39,961 bases of DNA from a virus, in IMG/VR virus record IMGVR_UViG_3300049783_000449, positions 1-39,961 of that record, one strand, 5' to 3'. Positions within the stretch are counted from its first letter, which is position 1; each line of letters begins with the position of its first letter. Position numbers and translations under genes: made by a program. Positions 284 to 39,961 of this stretch are shown one piece after another. Below the pieces are notes generated by a model. It was not told where the DNA came from and made no database searches. It worked only from the letters and a program-made list of their open reading frames with translations.

Positions 284-499
284 TCATATTACATGTCGTC
301 TAAGATTGTGATTAGAAAGAATCTCGTATTCTTCAAATATATCTGCACTCACATTTAACCCACCCACACCACCTTCACCAACAAAACGGAACACACCGCT
401 TGGCCTAGTTTTTAATGAGGAATAGTATGCAAATGCTTTGCTGTGTGTATCAAAATCTTTTCTTGTATGTAGTGTTAATACTGTATATGTGAAGTTCAT
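284..499 (-). CDS. Hypothetical protein, 71 aa
   Basis: Unknown protein, second gene of the run starting at 777. Its ATG overlaps the upstream stop codon (TAATG), which indicates translational coupling. It has a Gly-rich turn in the middle (GEGGVGGLN) and no membrane segment or recognisable motif. Small early phage proteins of this kind often act on host targets, but nothing in this sequence shows that. Confidence 0.6.
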   Translation of the reverse strand: MNFTYTVLTLHTRKDFDTHSKAFAYYSSLKTRPSGVFRFVGEGGVGGLNVSADIFEEYEILSNHNLRRHVI

Positions 500-777
500 T
501 ACATACCCACTTCAAATCTATTAGTAAAGGTGAATTCAAACACACGTTTGATAGTCTTGCATGGTGATTTAGACACAAGCTTTGTAACCACATAGCCATT
601 GCATGTATATGAGCGTGTCAACGTCTCACTTCCACCCAATCCACGCATGAAGGGTGCTGCATTAATTACATTGTTATAGTACTCTTCTCTCAGCTCTTGA
701 GTGAATGTCTCAACTTGATTCCATACTGTTTTAGTACCTGCTTTTAATTCGTAGTTTGTACTTGTTACTGTGTTCAT
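499..777 (-). CDS. Hypothetical protein, 92 aa
   Basis: Unknown protein, first gene of the leftmost minus-strand run. The start is supported by AAGG seven bases before the ATG. The leader is almost identical (21 of 23 bases) to the one before the clamp gene at 1440. A sigma70-type promoter lies just upstream at 834-861. No domain is recognised; the protein is polar with several aromatic residues. Confidence 0.65.
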   Translation of the reverse strand: MNTVTSTNYELKAGTKTVWNQVETFTQELREEYYNNVINAAPFMRGLGGSETLTRSYTCNGYVVTKLVSKSPCKTIKRVFEFTFTNRFEVGM

Positions 778-833
778 GTTGCTACCTTTTGTTGTTAATG
801 GGTGGGTGATACCATTGATGATACCAGTTGCCC

Positions 834-861
834 AATATACTTATGTATACTGAGCTGTCAA
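834..861 (-). promoter_or_regulatory. Sigma70-type promoter, minus strand
   Basis: On the minus strand a perfect -35 TTGACA (861-856) is followed after 16 bases by TATATT (839-834), five of six matches to the -10 consensus. It lies directly after the clamp gene stop and 57 bases before the ATG at 777, so it would drive the genes at 777-31. The spacer holds GTATAC, a palindrome that recurs in the 2-3 kb control region. Confidence 0.65.
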
Positions 862-864
862 TTA

Positions 865-1440
865 TTAAAGTCTACATGACATGATAATCATAACGCTTTT
901 TAAGTTATCAATGCCGTTATCAAATGTCACTCTCATACTACTTGCACTGTCTTTGAATTCCAGCTTAACAGGTTGGTGTTTTTTAGATATGAATGGCTTA
1001 GTCACTTTTAAGATATCGGCTAGAAACCTTGCATCCATTCCTATCTCTCGTATTTCTTTCGATTCGTCTTTCCATATAACACGTTCACAATCCGGATACC
1101 TACCGTTGATTGTCTCCACACTGCCCAGATTAAAATCAATTTGATTGTCTGTTATACCTGTTATAAACAACTCGTTCACGTCTGTCTTGTGATAGCCCAT
1201 TGCTTTAATCTTATCAATGAACAACTTAACATGTTTAATATCTAAGATAACATCTACTTCCATGCCTTGGATGATTGACTCTGATTTGAATTGAACTAAC
1301 TTGTGTCCGTCCGTTGACTCAATAGTATAACCATTAGGCATTGATTTGAAGTGTACGCCATTCAAATAATAACGTACGTCTGTTTTAGGTGCGATTGCGT
1401 AGCAAGCTGTCAGTATTTTGTAAAGCTCTTGATAGTTCAT
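865..1440 (-). CDS. Truncated DnaN-like beta sliding-clamp protein
   Basis: A 191-residue relative of bacterial DnaN (366 residues in E. coli). It aligns from the first helix of domain II: DVRYYLNG (21-28), TDGHKL (43-48), INGRYPDCERV (111-121) and the C-terminal IIMSCRL (185-191) match E. coli DVRYYLNG, TDGHRL, VDGRFPDYRRV and VVMPMRL. Domain I is absent, and about 45 residues from the first half of domain III are missing. The retained motifs are those lining the hydrophobic pocket that binds clamp-binding peptides in DnaN. The start has AAAGG upstream of the ATG. It could be a two-domain ring subunit (as trimers in T4 gp45 or PCNA), an accessory factor for the phage polymerase, or a decoy for clamp partners. 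The DnaN relationship is clear; the role is inference. Confidence 0.85.
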   Translation of the reverse strand: MNYQELYKILTACYAIAPKTDVRYYLNGVHFKSMPNGYTIESTDGHKLVQFKSESIIQGMEVDVILDIKHVKLFIDKIKAMGYHKTDVNELFITGITDNQIDFNLGSVETINGRYPDCERVIWKDESKEIREIGMDARFLADILKVTKPFISKKHQPVKLEFKDSASSMRVTFDNGIDNLKSVMIIMSCRL

Positions 1441-1457
1441 GTTATTACCTTTTGTTG

Positions 1458-1688
1458 TTATCGAGTTGTTCTTACAATTTGTACTGCTTTCTTTGTGCGT
1501 TCTATGTACTGGTCGCCTACGTCCTTGGAGTTTGGCTCATCTAAGAACTCACACAGCATCGCGTTAACAGCTCTCCAGCCTTTAAAGATTTGAGTTTCTA
1601 AGTGGTGAAATCTATCCTCAGGCCGTTTCGTACCACATGCAGGATTGTAGAATTTAACACATGCATATATGTAGCGTTGTTTTGTCAT
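1458..1688 (-). CDS. Hypothetical protein, 76 aa
   Basis: Unknown small protein upstream of the clamp gene, 17 bases away and probably co-transcribed with it. I chose the ATG at 1688 because AGGA precedes it; an upstream in-frame ATG at 1724 falls inside the repeated leader at 1701-1737 and lacks a ribosome site. It contains a KRPEDRFHHLE segment and an acidic-aromatic middle, with no recognised family. Confidence 0.6.
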   Translation of the reverse strand: MTKQRYIYACVKFYNPACGTKRPEDRFHHLETQIFKGWRAVNAMLCEFLDEPNSKDVGDQYIERTKKAVQIVRTTR

Positions 1689-1700
1689 TATATTATTCCT

Positions 1701-1737
1701 GTTAGTTGATAAGACAATAAGCATTCATTGAATACTC
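1701..1737. repeat. Leader repeat, copy 1
   Basis: A 37-base stretch that aligns without gaps to 1970-2006 (29 of 37 identical by eye). Both copies begin with GTTAGTTGATA and end with ATGAATACTC or TTGAATACTC on the plus strand. Each lies just before the start of a small minus-strand gene, so it is probably a shared promoter, operator or leader element. Confidence 0.6.
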
Positions 1738-1750
1738 ATTAGCCTATGAA

Positions 1751-1954
1751 CTACACTCTAGTAATTTTAGCGTGATTACTATCCGCGTCCCAATAGTGAG
1801 CACTACCAAGCTCTTCTATAGCTCTCTTAGAGCCCATCCGTGTTATATCTGTGTCAAGGTTGTTTCTAACTTTCTGGACAGCACCCGCTAAAGTATTAAA
1901 ATCAAATACGCCACTGTATTTAGTTGAAGTCATTTCTAATGTTACTTGATACAT
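1751..1954 (-). CDS. Hypothetical protein, 67 aa
   Basis: Unknown small protein, first gene after the non-coding segment in the minus direction. Its start has GAG upstream of the ATG and is preceded by the second leader repeat (1970-2006). It has a polar N-terminal half and an acidic C-terminal end (HYWDADSNHAKITRV). No membrane segment, signal peptide or known motif is seen. Confidence 0.55.
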   Translation of the reverse strand: MYQVTLEMTSTKYSGVFDFNTLAGAVQKVRNNLDTDITRMGSKRAIEELGSAHYWDADSNHAKITRV

Positions 1955-1969
1955 AATCTCACTCTTTTA

Positions 1970-2006
1970 GTTAGTTGATACGTTTAAAAGTACTCAATGA
2001 ATACTC
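1970..2006. repeat. Leader repeat, copy 2
   Basis: Second copy of the 37-base leader, immediately upstream of the gene starting at 1954. The outer blocks match copy 1 best and the centre diverges, as expected for two half-sites or a -35/-10 pair with a variable spacer. No single clear sigma70 promoter can be assigned inside it. Confidence 0.6.
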
Positions 2007-2223
2007 TTAAAGGTATACACCACATCGTTGCGGAACAACTACAAGACTACAGTATACTATTATTAATGCAACTATAAATATCAATATAAATACAATTAAA
2101 TGATAAGGCATTGAAACATAACGAATTATATATGCAAATAAACCGTATACATATACATATACTTATCACACAACTTGTAAACATATACATAAACAATGAT
2201 GATAGCATTACTTTATTACAGGC
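2007..2223. other. AT-rich non-coding segment
   Basis: No gene seen. The segment is rich in alternating purine-pyrimidine tracts with repeated ACATATAC units and GTATAC palindromes. On the minus strand TATACT near 2050-2060 is a -10-like hexamer but lacks a good -35. It probably carries the start signals for leftward transcription toward 1954, and may be part of a replication origin; both are inference. Confidence 0.4.
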
Positions 2224-2249
2224 AATAAAAAGCCCTAATTAAAGGGCTT
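2224..2249 (-). terminator. Rho-independent terminator, minus strand
   Basis: Perfect 7-bp stem AAGCCCT/AGGGCTT (2230-2236 and 2243-2249) with a six-base AT loop. On the minus strand it runs into TTTTTATT. It follows the stop at 2268 closely, so it ends the transcript of the small gene there and insulates it from the leftward genes at 1954 and below. Confidence 0.75.
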
Positions 2250-2267
2250 GTTGTAAAAGCGTTAGGA

Positions 2268-2426
2268 TTATCCTTCGACTGTCTCAGTATAAACAATCCA
2301 TTCGCTATATGACATAGCACCAATGATAAGAGGCTCAACTGTATCAACATAGTAACAAAACAACTTATCATTATTAATAGTAGTGAGGAGGACGTTTACA
2401 TATGCACAAAGTTTGATAAGGAACAT
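2268..2426 (-). CDS. Possible small protein, 52 aa
   Basis: A short ORF that ends just before a strong minus-strand terminator, which is the main reason to believe it. The ATG at 2426 has only a weak GAGTAAAG ribosome site; the reading frame continues upstream to a TTG at 2486 without a ribosome site. The N-terminus is hydrophobic (MFLIKLCAYVNVLL) and could insert in a membrane. No family is recognised. Confidence 0.4.
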   Translation of the reverse strand: MFLIKLCAYVNVLLTTINNDKLFCYYVDTVEPLIIGAMSYSEWIVYTETVEG

Positions 2427-2524
2427 TTTCTTTACTCGGTAGGTGTTTAAGTCATTACATAATAGCCATTCATTTACATAAGTCAAATACTAATTCAAAT
2501 AAACATACAACTAATACATACACA

Positions 2525-2580
2525 TAACATGTACACATAAACATCCTATATAAACATGTACTACTAACATGTACACATAA
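2525..2580. repeat. AACATGTAC repeat cluster
   Basis: The 16-mer TAACATGTACACATAA occurs at 2525-2540 and 2565-2580, exactly 40 bases apart. A third AACATGTAC lies between them at 2553-2561. The core ACATGT is palindromic, so each unit could bind a dimer. Iterons like this mark phage origins or operator arrays; no binding protein is identified. Confidence 0.6.
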
Positions 2581-2784
2581 GTACATAATCAATAAACATA
2601 ACACAACATACATATATACATATAGACACTGAGAGCTAGTAGGAGCCACACCACTGATAAGTGTAGACGTGTTGCCTTGGCAATATGGCTAACTATATAC
2701 AACTCAATCACTTAGCCATTGTGTCCGGTTTAGGACGCTAGGCTACACTCACTTCGTTCCTTCCACCCGAAATTATAATGAAGA

Positions 2785-2798
2785 CCCCCACAAGGGGG
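2785..2798. other. G/C hairpin
   Basis: CCCCC (2785-2789), loop ACAA, GGGGG (2794-2798), in very AT-rich surroundings. Neither strand has a clear T-tract directly after the stem, so it is a weak terminator at best. It starts about six bases after an isolated TATAAT and could form the 5' end of a rightward transcript. Confidence 0.4.
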
Positions 2799-2995
2799 GA
2801 ATTGCTTTGTTGAGGGTGTATATGCATAGCACTCTACAAATTTCTACAAAAAAGAATTTATATACACTTGAGTAGTTGCTGGGTAAACCACAGCTCCTTT
2901 GCTCACAAGGTCTAAAGACCATATTCGCGTAGTAGCAGCCTAAGTATTTACTGCTATTCTATTTAGTATGCTTGTATGCTAATAGATAAAGTAGA

Positions 2996-3024
2996 TTGCA
3001 TTACTGTTTCTTAATCAGTATACT
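2996..3024 (+). promoter_or_regulatory. Candidate late sigma70-type promoter
   Basis: TTGCAT (2996-3001), a 17-base spacer, then TATACT (3019-3024), five of six matches to the -10 consensus. It is the best rightward promoter-like sequence before the late genes and would give a leader of about 105 bases. The -35 is weak, which would fit a promoter that needs an activator or another sigma factor. Confidence 0.45.
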
Positions 3025-3138
3025 AGATTGTATGGTTTGCTTAATGCAGATAATCAATTTAAAGTGTACTCCTAGACAACAGAGACATAAGAACAGTCCA
3101 TTGGCAGATACAGTACACAATTATTCTAAAGGGGATGT

Positions 3139-3507
3139 ATGGGAAGTCTAATACTAACAGCCGTAACATCTCTGTTTACAGGTTGGGTAGAAGTTAAGAA
3201 AGCTAAACAAGCAGCAGAAGCAGAGAGAGCTTCTCGTATTGTTCAAGGTGAGTTTGATTACGACATAATGGCTATGGAGGCTGCTAAGACTTCATGGAAA
3301 GATGAAATGATTATGGTGATATGGTACAGCCCTCTAGTTATAGGCTGGTACGATAACAACACAGGTAAGCTGATTAGTGCATCAGACTGGGTAGAGTTCG
3401 TAGGTAAGCTCCCCTACTGGTGGCAAGTAGGAGCATTTGGTATTATGGCTGCATCCTTTGGCCTGAGATGGTTTTTTAAACAACAGAATTTCAAGGTAAC
3501 AAAGTAA
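3139..3507 (+). CDS. Putative holin, membrane protein
   Basis: A 122-residue protein with a hydrophobic N-terminus (about 1-16), a charged helical segment (about 18-55), a hydrophobic Trp-rich stretch (about 59-70, IMVIWYSPLVIGW) and a C-terminal membrane segment (about 92-112) before a basic tail. This layout resembles the three-membrane-segment holin-like proteins of many podoviruses and gene transfer agents. A holin would form inner-membrane lesions that release the endolysin. It is the first late gene, has AAGGGG upstream of the ATG, and its stop overlaps the next start (TAATG). Holins are poorly conserved, so a virion-membrane role cannot be excluded. Confidence 0.55.
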   Translation: MGSLILTAVTSLFTGWVEVKKAKQAAEAERASRIVQGEFDYDIMAMEAAKTSWKDEMIMVIWYSPLVIGWYDNNTGKLISASDWVEFVGKLPYWWQVGAFGIMAASFGLRWFFKQQNFKVTK

Positions 3508-5138
3508 TGGCAAGATACACAAAGACAGGCACACCTAATACAATAGGAGAGATAAACTCTCAATTTGATTTAATAGCTGTGGCTATAGCTGATACACTTT
3601 CTCGTAAAGGTGATGTTCCTAATCAAATGGAAACGTCTCTAGATGCTAATAGCAATCGTATCCTCAACCTACCAAAACCCCTTTCTGAGAATGAACCTGC
3701 ACGTCTTTCTGATTTGGCAGGTAGTTCTATTTCAATTGCATCTGCTATTACAACAGTAGATTTAATTGCCTCTACTACTGTTTATCTATCTAATACTATT
3801 GTTACTACAAACGGCTATACAGCATCAGGAGACAGTGGCAAAGGAGATTGGAAACAGAATGGTGTAATTAATCAAACAGTAAGTCAATCCCCTGCTCAAC
3901 TAGCAGCCCCGCTTCTTAATGATGCCTCTGGTAATCAATGGGCCCTAGTTCAAGGAAGTGGTGGCAGCCTATCTCAACTTGGTGTGGATAACATTACGTT
4001 TAGCATACCAACAGCTTTTCCAACAATATCTAGTGCAATTAACTTCCTATCTGGCTTCTCTCCTAAAACAAATCAAAGAGTAATACTAAGCCTAGAAACA
4101 GGTTTTTCAATGCAAGAACAAGTTTTTGTATATGGTATAAATTTAGGTTGGATTACAATCAGCTCTGTAGATGCAGAAGTAAACGTAGCACGTAGTTCTT
4201 TAACCGCCGTATTAGGAAGTTTGGATACATCCAGACCTGCCTTTGGTGGTATAAATTGCGTAATGCCTAAAATAAATGTTCTGTTTAGAATGGACACAAG
4301 CGGCAGTGCAGTAGGAAGACAAGACGGTCTTTTTGTTGAGAATGGCAAAGCTATTGTGCTTTCTGGAGCAGGATTTCAAGACTTTACGGAAGTAGGTATT
4401 TATGCTAATTCTGGTTCAGAAATAAATGCTGAAGGTTCTCTTTGTAGTGGTAATGGGGTGTATGGATACTTTGCATTTAAAACCTCAAATATAAACTGCC
4501 AGAATGCTATAGCTAATAATTGTGGTCAATATGGTTTATATGTAAACAGGGTTTCACAAGGTAGTGCTAATGGAGCAACTTTTAACAACGCAGGTGTTAA
4601 CGCTGTCCGAATAATCAGAGGTTCCGCTTTGTCATGGGAAAATGGTGTTGGTACAGGCTCAGGAGCAGACGGTATTTTTGCCCTCTCTTCTACTGTGCAA
4701 GCACTCGGAGCAAATGTTTCAGGGTCAACAGGCGCAGGTGTTTATGCACATGATGCATCTACTGTAGGTTTTAGAGATGGAAATGCAAGTGGATGTGGAG
4801 GGGTTGCTTCTTTATGGGCTTTCCGTGGCTCCATTATTGATGCGGATAACGCTACAGCTTCTACATCTTCTGGCTCGACTGCGGCTGTTCTTGCACAACG
4901 GGCTAGTACTATAAATTTTCAAAGCGGTACAGTTAACCCATCAACATCACCTAGAGGAATCAGAGCTTCAGAAGGTTCTACTATTAATGCGGTAAGTGCT
5001 AATGCTCAAACAACAGCAAGCCCTCTCTCAAGTGATGCTTCAGTGTTTGCAGGAGGCCAACTTGCGTTTACTTCTGGTACAGGCGGTGTGAGTCAGACTA
5101 TTAATGTACTTGCAGCCGAAGGAGTTATTTATCAATAA
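3507..5138 (+). CDS. Tail spike/fibre protein 1
   Basis: A 543-residue receptor-binding protein. The N-terminal adaptor (about 1-75) contains the phage tail-fibre motif around NQMETSLDANSNRILNLP, which in related phages joins the spike to the tail. A linker domain holds TNGYTASGDSGKGDWKQNG (about 100-118). The remainder is rich in Gly, Ser, Asn and small hydrophobics in short irregular repeats, as in right-handed beta-helices of polysaccharide-binding or -degrading spikes. No catalytic residues can be named. The same adaptor and linker occur in the next protein, so the virion probably carries two spike types. The start overlaps the upstream stop. Confidence 0.75.
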   Translation: MARYTKTGTPNTIGEINSQFDLIAVAIADTLSRKGDVPNQMETSLDANSNRILNLPKPLSENEPARLSDLAGSSISIASAITTVDLIASTTVYLSNTIVTTNGYTASGDSGKGDWKQNGVINQTVSQSPAQLAAPLLNDASGNQWALVQGSGGSLSQLGVDNITFSIPTAFPTISSAINFLSGFSPKTNQRVILSLETGFSMQEQVFVYGINLGWITISSVDAEVNVARSSLTAVLGSLDTSRPAFGGINCVMPKINVLFRMDTSGSAVGRQDGLFVENGKAIVLSGAGFQDFTEVGIYANSGSEINAEGSLCSGNGVYGYFAFKTSNINCQNAIANNCGQYGLYVNRVSQGSANGATFNNAGVNAVRIIRGSALSWENGVGTGSGADGIFALSSTVQALGANVSGSTGAGVYAHDASTVGFRDGNASGCGGVASLWAFRGSIIDADNATASTSSGSTAAVLAQRASTINFQSGTVNPSTSPRGIRASEGSTINAVSANAQTTASPLSSDASVFAGGQLAFTSGTGGVSQTINVLAAEGVIYQ

Positions 5139-5184: not shown

Positions 5185-7377
5185 ATGAGTAACTACACAC
5201 GTAATACATTAACAGGTAATTTAGCCCCAGTAAACGCTGAGTTAGAAAAAGTACAAACTGCTATAGCGGACAAGCTAGATAGAAACCCTTCTACGGGTCA
5301 AGCTAACCAACTAGAAAATACACTAGACGCTAACAGTAATAGAATTATAAACCTTCCTGCCCCATCCCACCCTAATGACCCTGCTCGTTTAGCGGATATT
5401 GCAGCAAGCCAAGGTAGTTCTGTGTTACCTCCCCAAGTAGGGCAGGTTAATAAATATTTAAGAACAGATGGCACTACTCCTTTTTGGGATGTTGTACTAA
5501 AAGCAACAGTTGGTTTAGGTAATGCAGATAATACCAGTGATGCTAATAAACCCGTAAGTACAGCACAACAAACAGCTCTTAATTTAAAAACTGACTTAGA
5601 TACTACTACAACAGCTTTAATAAGTAGTGTTGTTGTTTACAGCGCAGCTGTCATTATTAAAACAAATGGCTTTACTACAAGCGGTGACGGTGGAGCAAGT
5701 TCTTGGAAACAGAATGGTGTTACGGGTCAGGTTGTAAGTCAAAGCCCCTCACAAATTTTTGTAGCTACAGGTGTCGGTAATTTGCTTAACGATGCCAATG
5801 GTGTTCAATGGTCATTAAAAAGCTATCCTCATAATGTACACATGCTCGGCGCGGTAGGAAACGGGTCGACTAATGACAAGCCGATTTGGGAGGCGTATTT
5901 AAACGTATACGCATTGGTTGGTTGCAACGGTATAAAAGGCAAGGTTTATGCGATTGACGGGGATTTAACTTTACCCGTACGAGTCGGCATTAAAGACGCT
6001 GATTTTTTACAAATAAATCCTGCAGCTAACACAAAAACACTAGTTAGCTTAGCAAATGTTCATTGCGAATTAGAAAACGTGGAGGTAAATAGGGGCACTA
6101 ATAAAAACGCAGGTAGTTTGAGCGGGAGTTCAGGGTTTTGGATAGTTGGTGGTGTCGTCAGAGGTAGAGATATCAGTGCAACGGGTAATGGTTTTGGCTC
6201 AGGAATGTCATTCCATCAGTTCACAGATTTAATAATCTACAGCCCTTTAGTCTACGATACTTTTGCGGGTGATAGTTCGACATCTGCAATAACTGATGAT
6301 GTGTTTCAAGGCTTTTGGCTAAACCAAGGAGAGAAAGCACAGGTATATGCCCTTAATGTTAAAAACACAACTATTCAATGGACAGGTCAAGCGGCAACAA
6401 CTCAATACAATAGAGGCGTTGCAGTAGGTGGTACAAAAGATTTTACCTTCCACGGTGGGGTTGTAGATACGGTAGGTCAAGGCTGGGATTTTACAGGAGA
6501 CCAATTTACTACTAGGTTTAGCGTTTTTGGCGCTCATGCAAAAAATTGTTATTCTTGGGGATTTAAAGCAGCTAACACAGTAACATCAGGTCGATACTTT
6601 GGTTGCCACACATACCGAGCAGATTTAGGGGGATTTGTTGCAAGTCCTCCTAGCGCAACAGTAGCCAACCCAGTTGCAGAATATACGCAGAATATTGTAT
6701 ACACAGGGTGTACAGCAACAGAAACGGGGACGGTTGGTAACTGGGCGGGAATTGCTACTATTTGTGGTTTTAGAACTCAAACCAATGCAACTTATCCTAC
6801 GTACCCACAAGGTATAAAATGGGTTGATTGTTTGTCCGATAGTACAACTGTACAGTTTGGATTTTTTAATGAGGTAAGTATTGGAGGGTCAACAACAAAC
6901 AACTGGGTTGAAGAAATGGGCTGTAGGTCAGTTGGACATACAACAGCAGCGTTTAGGGGTTTAAACACTGCATATTTAGAAAGAAACCGAGCAACAAACC
7001 AAACAATACCTAATAACACAGCAACATTAATATCATATAACGATACTATATACGACGGATTCAACGGCACTACATCCGCAACACTGCATACAATACGTAG
7101 AGATGGTTTGTATACTGTTAACGCATATGCGGAAATTTCGGGTAATGCGTCTGGAATTAGGCGTATACAAATCAATGTAAATGGCGCGGCAGGAGTTAGG
7201 CGCACATACCCACCAAGCGCATCCGGCACAACAATGGGAATTAATGACACAAAAAAATACTCTGCGGGTGACACAATTGAAATAATTGTTTTACAAGATA
7301 GCGGATCTGCTTTAGATATCCAGTCTGGTCAAACTAAATTAAGCATCGTTGGTGAAGTGCAAGCGGGTCGATCTTGA
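5185..7377 (+). CDS. Tail spike/fibre protein 2
   Basis: A 730-residue second spike. Its N-terminal adaptor (LENTLDANSNRIINLP, about 48-63) and linker (TNGFTTSGDGGASSWKQNG) are clearly related to those of the preceding spike. From about residue 215 (MLGAVGNGSTNDKPIWEAYL) it enters a pectate-lyase-like beta-helix of the kind seen in tailspikes, and the last 130 residues look like a C1q/TNF-like C-terminal beta-sandwich (HTIRRDGLYTVNAYAEISGN). The DNA from about 5830 uses codons such as GCG, CGG, GGG and ACG more than the adaptor does, which suggests a swapped-in receptor-binding module. Confidence 0.75.
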   Translation: MSNYTRNTLTGNLAPVNAELEKVQTAIADKLDRNPSTGQANQLENTLDANSNRIINLPAPSHPNDPARLADIAASQGSSVLPPQVGQVNKYLRTDGTTPFWDVVLKATVGLGNADNTSDANKPVSTAQQTALNLKTDLDTTTTALISSVVVYSAAVIIKTNGFTTSGDGGASSWKQNGVTGQVVSQSPSQIFVATGVGNLLNDANGVQWSLKSYPHNVHMLGAVGNGSTNDKPIWEAYLNVYALVGCNGIKGKVYAIDGDLTLPVRVGIKDADFLQINPAANTKTLVSLANVHCELENVEVNRGTNKNAGSLSGSSGFWIVGGVVRGRDISATGNGFGSGMSFHQFTDLIIYSPLVYDTFAGDSSTSAITDDVFQGFWLNQGEKAQVYALNVKNTTIQWTGQAATTQYNRGVAVGGTKDFTFHGGVVDTVGQGWDFTGDQFTTRFSVFGAHAKNCYSWGFKAANTVTSGRYFGCHTYRADLGGFVASPPSATVANPVAEYTQNIVYTGCTATETGTVGNWAGIATICGFRTQTNATYPTYPQGIKWVDCLSDSTTVQFGFFNEVSIGGSTTNNWVEEMGCRSVGHTTAAFRGLNTAYLERNRATNQTIPNNTATLISYNDTIYDGFNGTTSATLHTIRRDGLYTVNAYAEISGNASGIRRIQINVNGAAGVRRTYPPSASGTTMGINDTKKYSAGDTIEIIVLQDSGSALDIQSGQTKLSIVGEVQAGRS

Positions 7378-35430: not shown

Positions 35431-37428
35431 CTAGTGAACTTCTGCCCAATTTAAACCAATCTGCCCCTCACCTATCTGCTTGATAGTGAGATTGAAAAAC
35501 TCTCCTGCTTGTGCTATACATCTCTCCAATATACCCTTGACATCTTCTGCTATCTCAGGTTTTGTTTCAAATGTGTATTCATCGTGGTAGAAACATACTT
35601 GTTTGTAGTCTACACCATCTATGTACTTACTTCTTAGTTCTTTGTTAGCCATGACTGTTGCGACCTGCATCATAATAGCTTCATCACTCTGTACTGCGTA
35701 TACTAACACATCCTTCTCACTACGTACAAGCACTCTTCTCCCATCCAGTGCAACTATATATCCGTTATAGAACTCTGTCTTCTCTTGCTTCCTCCCATTC
35801 CATGTGTACTTCACTGTCCTTCTTCTTGCTGTCTTAACCCACTCTTCCCTGATATGAGCCTGTAGTCCTATCTGAGCTTGGAATACTGTATCAAATGCAG
35901 CCTTAACAGCCTTGCCTATAACAACAGCTCTTGCTTCGTTCTTCTCCCCTGCCATGAAGCCAATCTTCTTAGCACCACATCCAAACTTGTAACCATAAGA
36001 GAAGTTCTTAGCTGAATCCCTTTCTATGGTTTCCCTTCCTAGTGCAGGGAATAGTTTGTTAATCTCATCCCTAGCTCTCGTATGGCTATCTGTTCCTTTA
36101 GCCTTATCTCCATTTAATATCATATCCTCAAATATATCATCTGATATACCTGCATCCTTTGCTCTTGATACAATCATCCTGTCTTGACAACTAGCAGCAT
36201 CAGCACTAACCAATACCATCCCTTCTTCGGCTATAAAGCATCGTCTCATCTGCTTACCAAAGAAACTAGTTACCTTGGGGACATTGGCTAAACTGGCATG
36301 TCTAACTCGGTATGTGTCAGCGAATCCGCTCACTCTACTCTCTAAGCGTCCATCCTCCCTCACCCTATCCAACCACCCCTGTATACTAGAACGTCTGTGT
36401 ACGCACTGTACACGCTTACATATCAACCTCCCCAGCTTTCCATCAACACCAAGGAAGCTGTCATCAGAGGAGAGCTTAGGACTCGTTCTAACTGGATTAC
36501 CATCTTCATCTACTTCCTTTTTACTGTAGTTGTATTCTTCTGGTTGCCATCCCAAATCGAGAAGAAACTCTTTAACTTCTTTATCCGAGGCCAGATTAAC
36601 CCTCCTAAAATCCACCCTACAGAAAGGACCACCCACATTGCTAGCAAAACTATCCAAATCATTCTTATCTATCCACTTCTGTAGTCTTAGTGCCATTGTC
36701 CCTGCTTTAGTAAAGGGAGCTTGAACACCCTCACTATATCCGTCTTCCATCCTGTCTTCTTTAATCGTGGGAATCATAGGTAGTTGGGGATGTAACACTC
36801 TATCTATCCTATCCACCCACGTAGTAAGCTGTCTTATGTAACGCTCACATCTAGGAATATCAAGCTTCCATCCATGCTTCTCTTGTCTACTGATGCAGTC
36901 CATGAAGTCCATAGTGAGCCACACAGCTCTAGGAGGGAAGTTACCATTCTGTAGCTTCTTCTGCATCTCTAAGTACACAAGATACGTAATCTCTACATCC
37001 TCTACACATCTATGCATCATCTCAGGTGTGTACTGACTCCAGTCCTCATGTTCCACCTTACCCCTACCTAACCTATATCCCCAAGCTGCAAGGCTGTGAG
37101 GGCCATCTAGCTTCTTCCCTTTCTCTATGTAATCAAGCTTCATCTGTTCAGGTACAGGTATGTTCTTGCACAACTCTCGGGACAACAACACAGTATCTAT
37201 TACACGTCCTTTGTACTCATAGCCCCATATCTTTTTAAGAAGAGGCTTATCATATCCAATACCATGATGCATAATCAATACTGTTGCCTTATCAAGCATA
37301 GCCTCTATCTTAGCTTGTGTTCTAAACCTCCATACTTGCCCTGTTTCTGTACATTTAAACACAGCACACCATATCTGTGTAGCCTCTTGATAAAGGCCAT
37401 CAGCCTCTAGGTCACATACTAATTTCAT
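35431..37428 (-). CDS. T7-type DNA polymerase (family A)
   Basis: A 665-residue replicative polymerase like T7 gp5 (704 residues). Proofreading exonuclease: CDLEADG (D6, E8), GIGYDKP (D60), CVEDVEITY (D144). Polymerase: motif A DAASCQDR (410-417), motif B RDSAKNFSYGY (470-480), motif C YHDE (614-617), and the C-terminal GLNWAEVH resembles T7 GPNWAICH. The thumb (about 210-295) has an insertion comparable in place and length to the T7 thioredoxin-binding loop, so a host processivity partner is possible; the phage clamp fragment is another candidate. The motif A Glu that excludes ribonucleotides in T7 (E480) is Gln here. Confidence 0.93.
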   Translation of the reverse strand: MKLVCDLEADGLYQEATQIWCAVFKCTETGQVWRFRTQAKIEAMLDKATVLIMHHGIGYDKPLLKKIWGYEYKGRVIDTVLLSRELCKNIPVPEQMKLDYIEKGKKLDGPHSLAAWGYRLGRGKVEHEDWSQYTPEMMHRCVEDVEITYLVYLEMQKKLQNGNFPPRAVWLTMDFMDCISRQEKHGWKLDIPRCERYIRQLTTWVDRIDRVLHPQLPMIPTIKEDRMEDGYSEGVQAPFTKAGTMALRLQKWIDKNDLDSFASNVGGPFCRVDFRRVNLASDKEVKEFLLDLGWQPEEYNYSKKEVDEDGNPVRTSPKLSSDDSFLGVDGKLGRLICKRVQCVHRRSSIQGWLDRVREDGRLESRVSGFADTYRVRHASLANVPKVTSFFGKQMRRCFIAEEGMVLVSADAASCQDRMIVSRAKDAGISDDIFEDMILNGDKAKGTDSHTRARDEINKLFPALGRETIERDSAKNFSYGYKFGCGAKKIGFMAGEKNEARAVVIGKAVKAAFDTVFQAQIGLQAHIREEWVKTARRRTVKYTWNGRKQEKTEFYNGYIVALDGRRVLVRSEKDVLVYAVQSDEAIMMQVATVMANKELRSKYIDGVDYKQVCFYHDEYTFETKPEIAEDVKGILERCIAQAGEFFNLTIKQIGEGQIGLNWAEVH

Positions 37429-39573: not shown

Positions 39574-39761
39574 ATCCCCTCCAATTCATTAATATCTACT
39601 ACACATGAATGTCTGTCAGATTCAGGGTCAGCAACTTGCAGAGCAATCCACTTGGCCTCCGTTTCGTCCCCTGCTTCCACATCTAAACGGTAAGTAGCAT
39701 AACCCAAACAAGCGAAATTCTTTGTCAAATAAGTTTTTACTGTTACATCATACGTTTTCAT
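39558..39761 (-). CDS. Hypothetical protein, 67 aa
   Basis: Unknown protein with a beta-strand-rich first half (MKTYDVTVKTYLTKNF) followed by GDETEAKWIALQ, a layout seen in small phage ssDNA- or protein-binding accessory proteins; this is not diagnostic. GGAG lies seven bases before its ATG. It overlaps the neighbours on both sides. Confidence 0.6.
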   Translation of the reverse strand: MKTYDVTVKTYLTKNFACLGYATYRLDVEAGDETEAKWIALQVADPESDRHSCVVDINELEGIWHTQ

Positions 39762-39961
39762 AATCAGGCTCCAATTCCGTATTAATTATTACAAGCCTAT
39801 GTAGCTCCTTATCAATAGCTACAAGCTCACTATCTATTTCTGATATCCCTTCTTCATACTCCCCTATTTTAGCCAGAAATCCTGCTCTATTGTACTCCAG
39901 AAGTTCTGCTCTTTGAATCAAACTCGTACGTCTGGTATCACTAAGTTTTAATATAGAATGT
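39748..39961 (-). CDS. Partial coiled-coil protein, cut by window edge
   Basis: An open frame enters from the right edge and ends with TGA at 39750-39748. The visible 70 residues are charged and helical (LIQRAELLEYNRAGFLAKIG, then SEIDSELVAIDKELHRL) and look like a coiled coil. The N-terminus is outside the window. Its end overlaps the next gene by 14 bases. Confidence 0.6.
   Translation of the reverse strand, partial: HSILKLSDTRRTSLIQRAELLEYNRAGFLAKIGEYEEGISEIDSELVAIDKELHRLVIINTELEPDYENV

Follow-up and report, generated by a model that had tools for sequence, protein, structure and literature searches.

A phage protein family that keeps the peptide-binding pocket of the bacterial sliding clamp and lacks its ring interface

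Introduction

The peptide-binding pocket of the bacterial sliding clamp is a hub that coordinates replication, repair and initiation control, and is an antibacterial target. What might a phage gain from a gene that encodes this pocket and little else of the clamp? We have addressed this question for a gene located in a 39,961-nucleotide stretch of viral DNA (hereafter the window), which is a fragment of a marine podophage genome whose terminase resembles those of Vibrio, Pseudoalteromonas (RIO-1, Zobellviridae) and oyster-associated phages. The structural genes of the window run rightward and the replication operon runs leftward from about position 2000, with the gene under study near the operon start.

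Results

The gene and its homology to DnaN

The gene and its two parts lie at the following positions:

865 to 1440, minus strand: half-clamp gene (PHROG 3007 family), 191 aa
1090 to 1425, minus strand: codons of the domain II-like part (about aa 6-117; Pfam DNA_pol3_beta_2 match at 6-117), aligning with E. coli DnaN 136-252
868 to 1053, minus strand: codons of the second half of domain III (about aa 130-191), ending in IIMSCRL and matching DnaN 313-366

The reading frame starts with ATG, and AAAGG upstream provides a good ribosome-binding site. The Pfam profile DNA_pol3_beta_2 matches the protein with E = 5e-7 and 30.4 bits (cut-off 27), and the match of residues 6-117 to profile positions 7-116 of 116 corresponds to the entire domain II, within which the pocket segments DVRYYLNG, TDGHKL and INGRYPDCERV are found. 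The NCBIfam dnaN profile TIGR00663 matches with E = 7e-12 at 45.1 bits, below its equivalog cut-off of 137.65, and all PDB matches in a phmmer search at E ≤ 0.12 are DnaN. A profile built from 28 relatives recovers E. coli DnaN (E about 1e-27), and a second, separate match covers DnaN 314-366, including the C-terminal ...VVMPMRL. As the halves of domain III are similar, a local alignment may also extend into the first; that the second was kept is shown by the C-terminal signature and the full alignments. Full-length phage clamps (PHROG 947) also match the window protein, at E = 3e-10, but this family spans 368 positions and keeps the regions that the half-clamp is missing; the beta clamp of Ralstonia phage Heva shares the clamp fold. 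An initial sequence-only reading had claimed homology to DnaN from domain II to the last residue and had proposed a search for a DnaN profile match as a check. Such matches were found with Pfam, TIGR00663, PHROG 947 and the 28-relative profile, and together with the PDB matches they bear the claim out. The family identity and the half-clamp anatomy described below are, in our view, virtually certain.

The pocket is kept and the ring interface is deleted

Three domains are expected of a DnaN; the half-clamp consists of domain II and half of domain III only. Compared with the 366 aa of E. coli DnaN, with which it shares domain II, the second half of domain III and the peptide pocket positions, the 191-aa window protein lacks domain I, the first half of domain III and the ring interface. 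Across 45 aligned non-redundant members, the kept parts correspond to about residues 136-252 and 311-366 of E. coli DnaN, and the missing parts to domain I (residues 7-135) and the first half of domain III (residues 253-310); the apparent occupancy of DnaN residues 1-6 is an artefact of the N-terminal alignment. The earlier suggestion that domain I and about half of domain III are absent thus holds on alignment to E. coli DnaN, with the missing half now identified as the first.

A 2024 review lists as pocket residues R152, L155, T172, G174, H175, R176, L177, P242, R246, V247, N320, Y323, V344, V360, M362, P363, M364 and R365, and as dimer-interface residues I78, R103, F106, I272, L273, E298 and E304 (PMC11139829). 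In all 45 non-redundant members, the 18 pocket positions fall inside the kept segments and the seven interface residues fall inside the deleted segments. Mean identity to E. coli DnaN is 73% at the pocket positions versus 23% at the other kept positions (45 members; P = 1e-7, Mann-Whitney test). In the window half-clamp, 11 of the 18 pocket positions are identical to E. coli DnaN, which upholds the previous claim that the pocket-lining positions are retained. The other seven are K176, D320, F323, A344, I360, S363 and C364; most of these changes are conservative, and they leave room for the affinity or specificity of the window copy to differ.

We compared these values with those of 77 cellular DnaNs from a scan of bacterial contigs (77 of 80 sequences were full-length; they are mostly gammaproteobacterial and are no guide to the host). 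Their identity is 93% at the pocket, 49% at the other retained positions and 89% at the interface. Because cellular DnaNs show 93% against 49%, the half-clamps have diverged about twice as far outside the pocket and have kept most of the pocket itself. In any DnaN, conservation is highest at the pocket residues, and their retention alone is no proof of function. Furthermore, when the kept/deleted pattern was moved around DnaN in 366 circular shifts, 11 shifts left every pocket position in kept segments, and each of these also deleted every interface position. Pocket retention and interface loss are therefore partly linked by the layout of DnaN.

Predicted structure

The AlphaFold2 model of the window half-clamp (input of 28 natural relatives; mean pLDDT 91.7, pTM 0.89) consists of three alpha-beta3 repeats, with helices at 3-16, 68-80 and 138-150, equivalent to 1.5 clamp domains. 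Among the best 50 PDB matches found by Foldseek, all are DnaN, with TMq of 0.68-0.78; the alignments extend to about 254 columns because they include the gap left by the missing half-domain. Since the match spans about 254 DnaN columns with TMq of 0.73-0.78, both retained pieces superpose together on DnaN, and we infer the pocket geometry from this superposition and from sequence. The fold recurs in the BFVD library, in many phage proteins with lengths of about 160-270 aa. We also modeled a second family member, similar to that of phage yong1 (pLDDT 91.1). Its predicted fold differs from that of the window copy in the absence of the second inner, DNA-facing helix of domain II. Judging from these two models, the DNA-facing side is thus not maintained, whereas the pocket side is.

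A catalogued family under purifying selection

The closest profile to the window protein is PHROG 3007 (190 positions), which matches over its full length (E = 6.4e-28; residues 7-191 to profile 7-186 of 190) and is also matched by all 28 members of the family alignment. The window copy shares the same two deletions and the same pocket motifs with the other members. At least 257 phage records carry the family according to tblastn, and a pattern derived from the family alignment hit 279 places in viral contigs, of which 80 were kept; the window protein alone as a query found no relatives among the viral contigs. In a tree based on the retained columns, 45 half-clamps including the window copy form one clade apart from 23 cellular DnaNs (SH support 0.986), although the branches are long and the exact root is uncertain. 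The window copy branches with two members to which it is 42-47% identical (L022 and L023), and shares less than 34% identity with the other aligned members. It is a new, divergent member of a catalogued family. The dN/dS ratios of close half-clamp pairs range from 0.06 to 0.28; by this measure of sequence change, the family is under purifying selection.

Family members, including Sodalis phage SO-1 gp7, a protein of Shigella phage EP23 and BcepC6B gp31, are recorded under the names “DNA polymerase III beta subunit”, “clamp” or “DNA clamp protein” and “RusA-like Holliday junction resolvase”. The RusA label is attached to PHROG 3007 and to RefSeq records such as NC_016566, NC_013600 and NC_005887. 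No RusA domain was matched in the half-clamp at E ≤ 1 in Pfam or NCBIfam, and the label appears to be a propagated error. Two genes on bacterial contigs, at 7941-8720 of L163 (Shewanella oncorhynchi) and 7968-8879 of L205 (Colwellia sp.), are half-clamp-like with long C-terminal extensions, and probably lie in prophages. None of the PADLOC profiles of anti-phage defence matched the half-clamp or its four neighbouring ORFs.

A functional study of half-clamps was not found in the papers searched; a Kagunavirus paper assumes a processivity role (PMC9825357). The toxicity of the Adephagia gp35 “sliding clamp” (PMC11373665) was set aside, the HHpred value given there being 18.4. As far as we searched the literature, the pattern of a kept pocket with a lost interface and the independence from polymerases described below are new.

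Genomic context in the window

The neighbourhood of the half-clamp gene contains the following features, listed with the phage DNA polymerase gene:

285 to 2033, minus strand: accessory early-gene cassette with the half-clamp, where synteny with the three closest relatives (L102, L103 and L107) is broken
499 to 777, minus strand: downstream co-directional ORF, PHROG 16226 (no function assigned)
1458 to 1724, minus strand: upstream co-directional ORF, with no match to a PHROGs or PADLOC family
35431 to 37428, minus strand: T7-like family A DNA polymerase, 79-83% identical in relatives that have no half-clamp

The terminases of the three closest relatives are 89-96% identical to that of the window. 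Synteny with them is lost at about 273-285 and picks up again at 2034; in this interval the relatives have unrelated small ORFs. The half-clamp gene and ORF 499-777 have a ribosome-binding leader in common, TAACAACAAAAGGTARYAACATG (at 777-800 and 1441-1465, minus strand), and a promoter-like TTGACA-16-TATATT is located directly past the half-clamp stop (861-834, minus strand). Positions 2034-3130, which separate the structural operon from the early one, hold few ORFs and AT-rich short repeats, with blocks conserved at 75-85% in the three relatives; this region likely contains divergent early promoters or an origin. At 3507-5138 and 5185-7377 there are consecutive tail-fibre-like genes with a common N-terminal motif, LDANSNRI(L/I)NLP, which suggests duplicated anchors to the virion, each with a tip of its own. 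The record stops within the replication operon (39748-39961), and the primase/helicase that adjoins the sigma-like gene in RIO-1 is missing, which indicates that the window genome is incomplete. By comparison with RIO-1, the replication operon would continue past the contig end into 39961-29163. Rfam and tRNA scans returned no matches.

The half-clamp does not track phage polymerases

The polymerase of the window is 83% identical in L102 and 79% in L107, and the half-clamp was not found elsewhere in the records of these two relatives or of L103. It is absent from all ten terminase-relative records, several of which are fragments. No clamp-binding motif (CBM) above chance was found in the window proteins. 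The window polymerase aligns with T7 gp5 in the last 20 residues of the presumed thioredoxin-binding insert of gp5, and on the strength of this alignment it likely has a processivity route other than the half-clamp.

The placement of the gene varies widely among phages. In SO-1, Escherichia phage 26, Segz_1 and Proteus CJR it is an opposite-strand insertion among structural genes, described as a possible moron by the SO-1 annotators, and in Acinetobacter phage Cato it lies inside the tail genes. In the lambdoid, temperate phage yong1 it sits between cII and the replication genes, and in BcepC6B and PEi21 it adjoins the phage DNA polymerase. The PEi21 copy (Edwardsiella phage, L012, 6001-6528) is broken by a stop and annotated as two genes. 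T4-like phages normally own a gp45 clamp, and a T4-like Morganella phage carries a half-clamp. The half-clamp is also carried by temperate and other phages, among them temperate or RepL-type Vibrio phages, in which no family A or B polymerase was detected; absence here means none detected, as some annotated polymerases (for example in PEi21) escape both Pfam DNA_pol_A and PHROG 17. PHROG 947 found no second clamp gene in the carriers, but in sortkaff it also missed the half-clamp itself. The neighbouring genes differ in almost every genome.

The half-clamp does not track phage polymerases, and this independent distribution makes a ring or processivity role unlikely. The premise of the sequence-only reading, that a clamp piece is odd in a phage with a T7-type polymerase, is weakened, as the family is common in tailed phages.

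Discussion

Alternative roles

Several roles could be assigned to a protein of this kind. A processivity or tether factor for the phage DNA polymerase, as some genome papers assume (PMC9825357) and as was also suggested at the outset for the window polymerase, would account for the “sliding clamp” name in annotations and for the gene adjoining the polymerase in BcepC6B and PEi21. However, close relatives of the window phage possess a polymerase 79-83% identical and no half-clamp, several carriers have no detectable polymerase, the window proteins have no CBM above chance, the ring interface is lost, and the alignment with the presumed thioredoxin-binding insert of T7 gp5 points to another route; we consider such a factor quite improbable. 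The half-clamp could alternatively build a new ring, in which protomers of 1.5 domains pair through their half-domains, for example as a two-fold tetramer (4 x 3 half-repeats = 12), or form a mixed ring with host DnaN. The window model has exactly three alpha-beta3 repeats and a clamp ring has 12, yet the published interface residues are missing, one inner helix is absent from the yong1-type member, and PHROG 947 detected no further clamp gene in the carriers, so that a new ring seems very unlikely. A trimeric two-domain ring, as first imagined, is not supported: the protein has three half-repeats and not the two domains that a PCNA-like trimer needs, no published dimer-interface residue is left, and the yong1-type member does not even have the second inner helix of domain II.

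An adaptor is also conceivable, with the pocket holding a CBM protein of the host, such as a ligase, a polymerase or a mismatch-repair factor, and the other face holding a phage protein or phage DNA, such that the host protein would be recruited to phage DNA. This would suit the conserved pocket, the lost ring and the position beside replication genes in yong1, BcepC6B and PEi21, but no constant phage partner gene accompanies the half-clamp, whose neighbours vary in almost every genome and which often stands alone among structural genes; we regard an adaptor role as unlikely. That the gene is a decaying, functionless dnaN fragment might be read from its shortened length and from the stop-interrupted copy in PEi21. 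For the family this is refuted by purifying selection (dN/dS 0.06-0.28), and it hardly agrees with one broadly spread clade having the same deletions throughout and intact frames in nearly all members; it is exceedingly improbable. The current database label, a RusA-like Holliday junction resolvase, draws on the PHROG 3007 and RefSeq product names and is almost certainly wrong: the Pfam, NCBIfam and PDB matches are to DnaN only, the predicted fold is that of DnaN, and the label is refuted on both sequence and predicted fold.

A ring-less pocket as a proposed decoy

The simplest explanation is that the half-clamp acts as a decoy, because the ring surfaces are lost, the distribution of the gene does not fit processivity for a phage polymerase and selection preserves the pocket. 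DnaN domain II and the C-terminal half of domain III would fold as one unit carrying the CBM pocket. As both canonical ring-closing surfaces are lost, no DnaN dimer ring and no sliding on DNA would be expected. Made from the accessory early-gene cassette, presumably early in infection, the half-clamp would be a soluble monomer that binds CBM peptides from at least one host protein in competition with host DnaN. Candidate clients are the clamp-loader delta, Pol III alpha, Pol II/IV/V, MutS/MutL and Hda, and the competition may bias host replication, repair or initiation control in favour of the phage. We give a ring-less decoy that captures host CBMs and competes with DnaN about an even chance; the CBM binding, monomeric state, early expression, competition and choice of client are our proposals. 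Among the roles suggested from sequence, soaking up host clamp partners fits the data best.

According to the 2024 review, delta has an affinity for a monomeric DnaN mutant about 50 times that for the dimer (PMC11139829), which makes this subunit, and with it the loading of clamps, a plausible target. A general block of host Pol III would harm temperate carriers such as yong1, which presumably depend on this enzyme, and this argues for a narrower client or a low dose. In at least some phages the target may be narrower: Hda, translesion polymerases, mismatch repair, or a defence factor that uses the clamp. The polymerase-adjacent copies in BcepC6B and PEi21 fit a replication role and count against the decoy.

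Implications

Other phage proteins share the clamp fold or act on the host clamp-client network on which the half-clamp would act. T4 gp45 is a clamp that forms a ring. ORF168 of S. aureus phage Twort reportedly binds and inhibits the host clamp DnaN itself, whereas the half-clamp would mimic DnaN and bind its clients. More broadly, many unrelated tailed phages might carry an “anti-hub”, a half-clamp pared down to the client-binding pocket, which would hijack the clamp interactome away from DNA by sequestering, for instance, Hda, the clamp-loader delta or a factor involved in repair or defence, an idea for which we put the chances at somewhat below even.

Whatever the role, the database name RusA resolvase, which stands on many phage records, is corrected. 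If the anti-hub idea is true, the half-clamp is the mirror image of the phage proteins that inhibit the clamp itself, and a phage family with the pocket only would be a natural competitor of the clamp hub. Half-clamps would then reveal the clamp interaction whose disruption matters most to phages, and would supply a small, soluble pocket for use in biochemistry and screening, with E. coli K-12 phages among the carriers of the gene.
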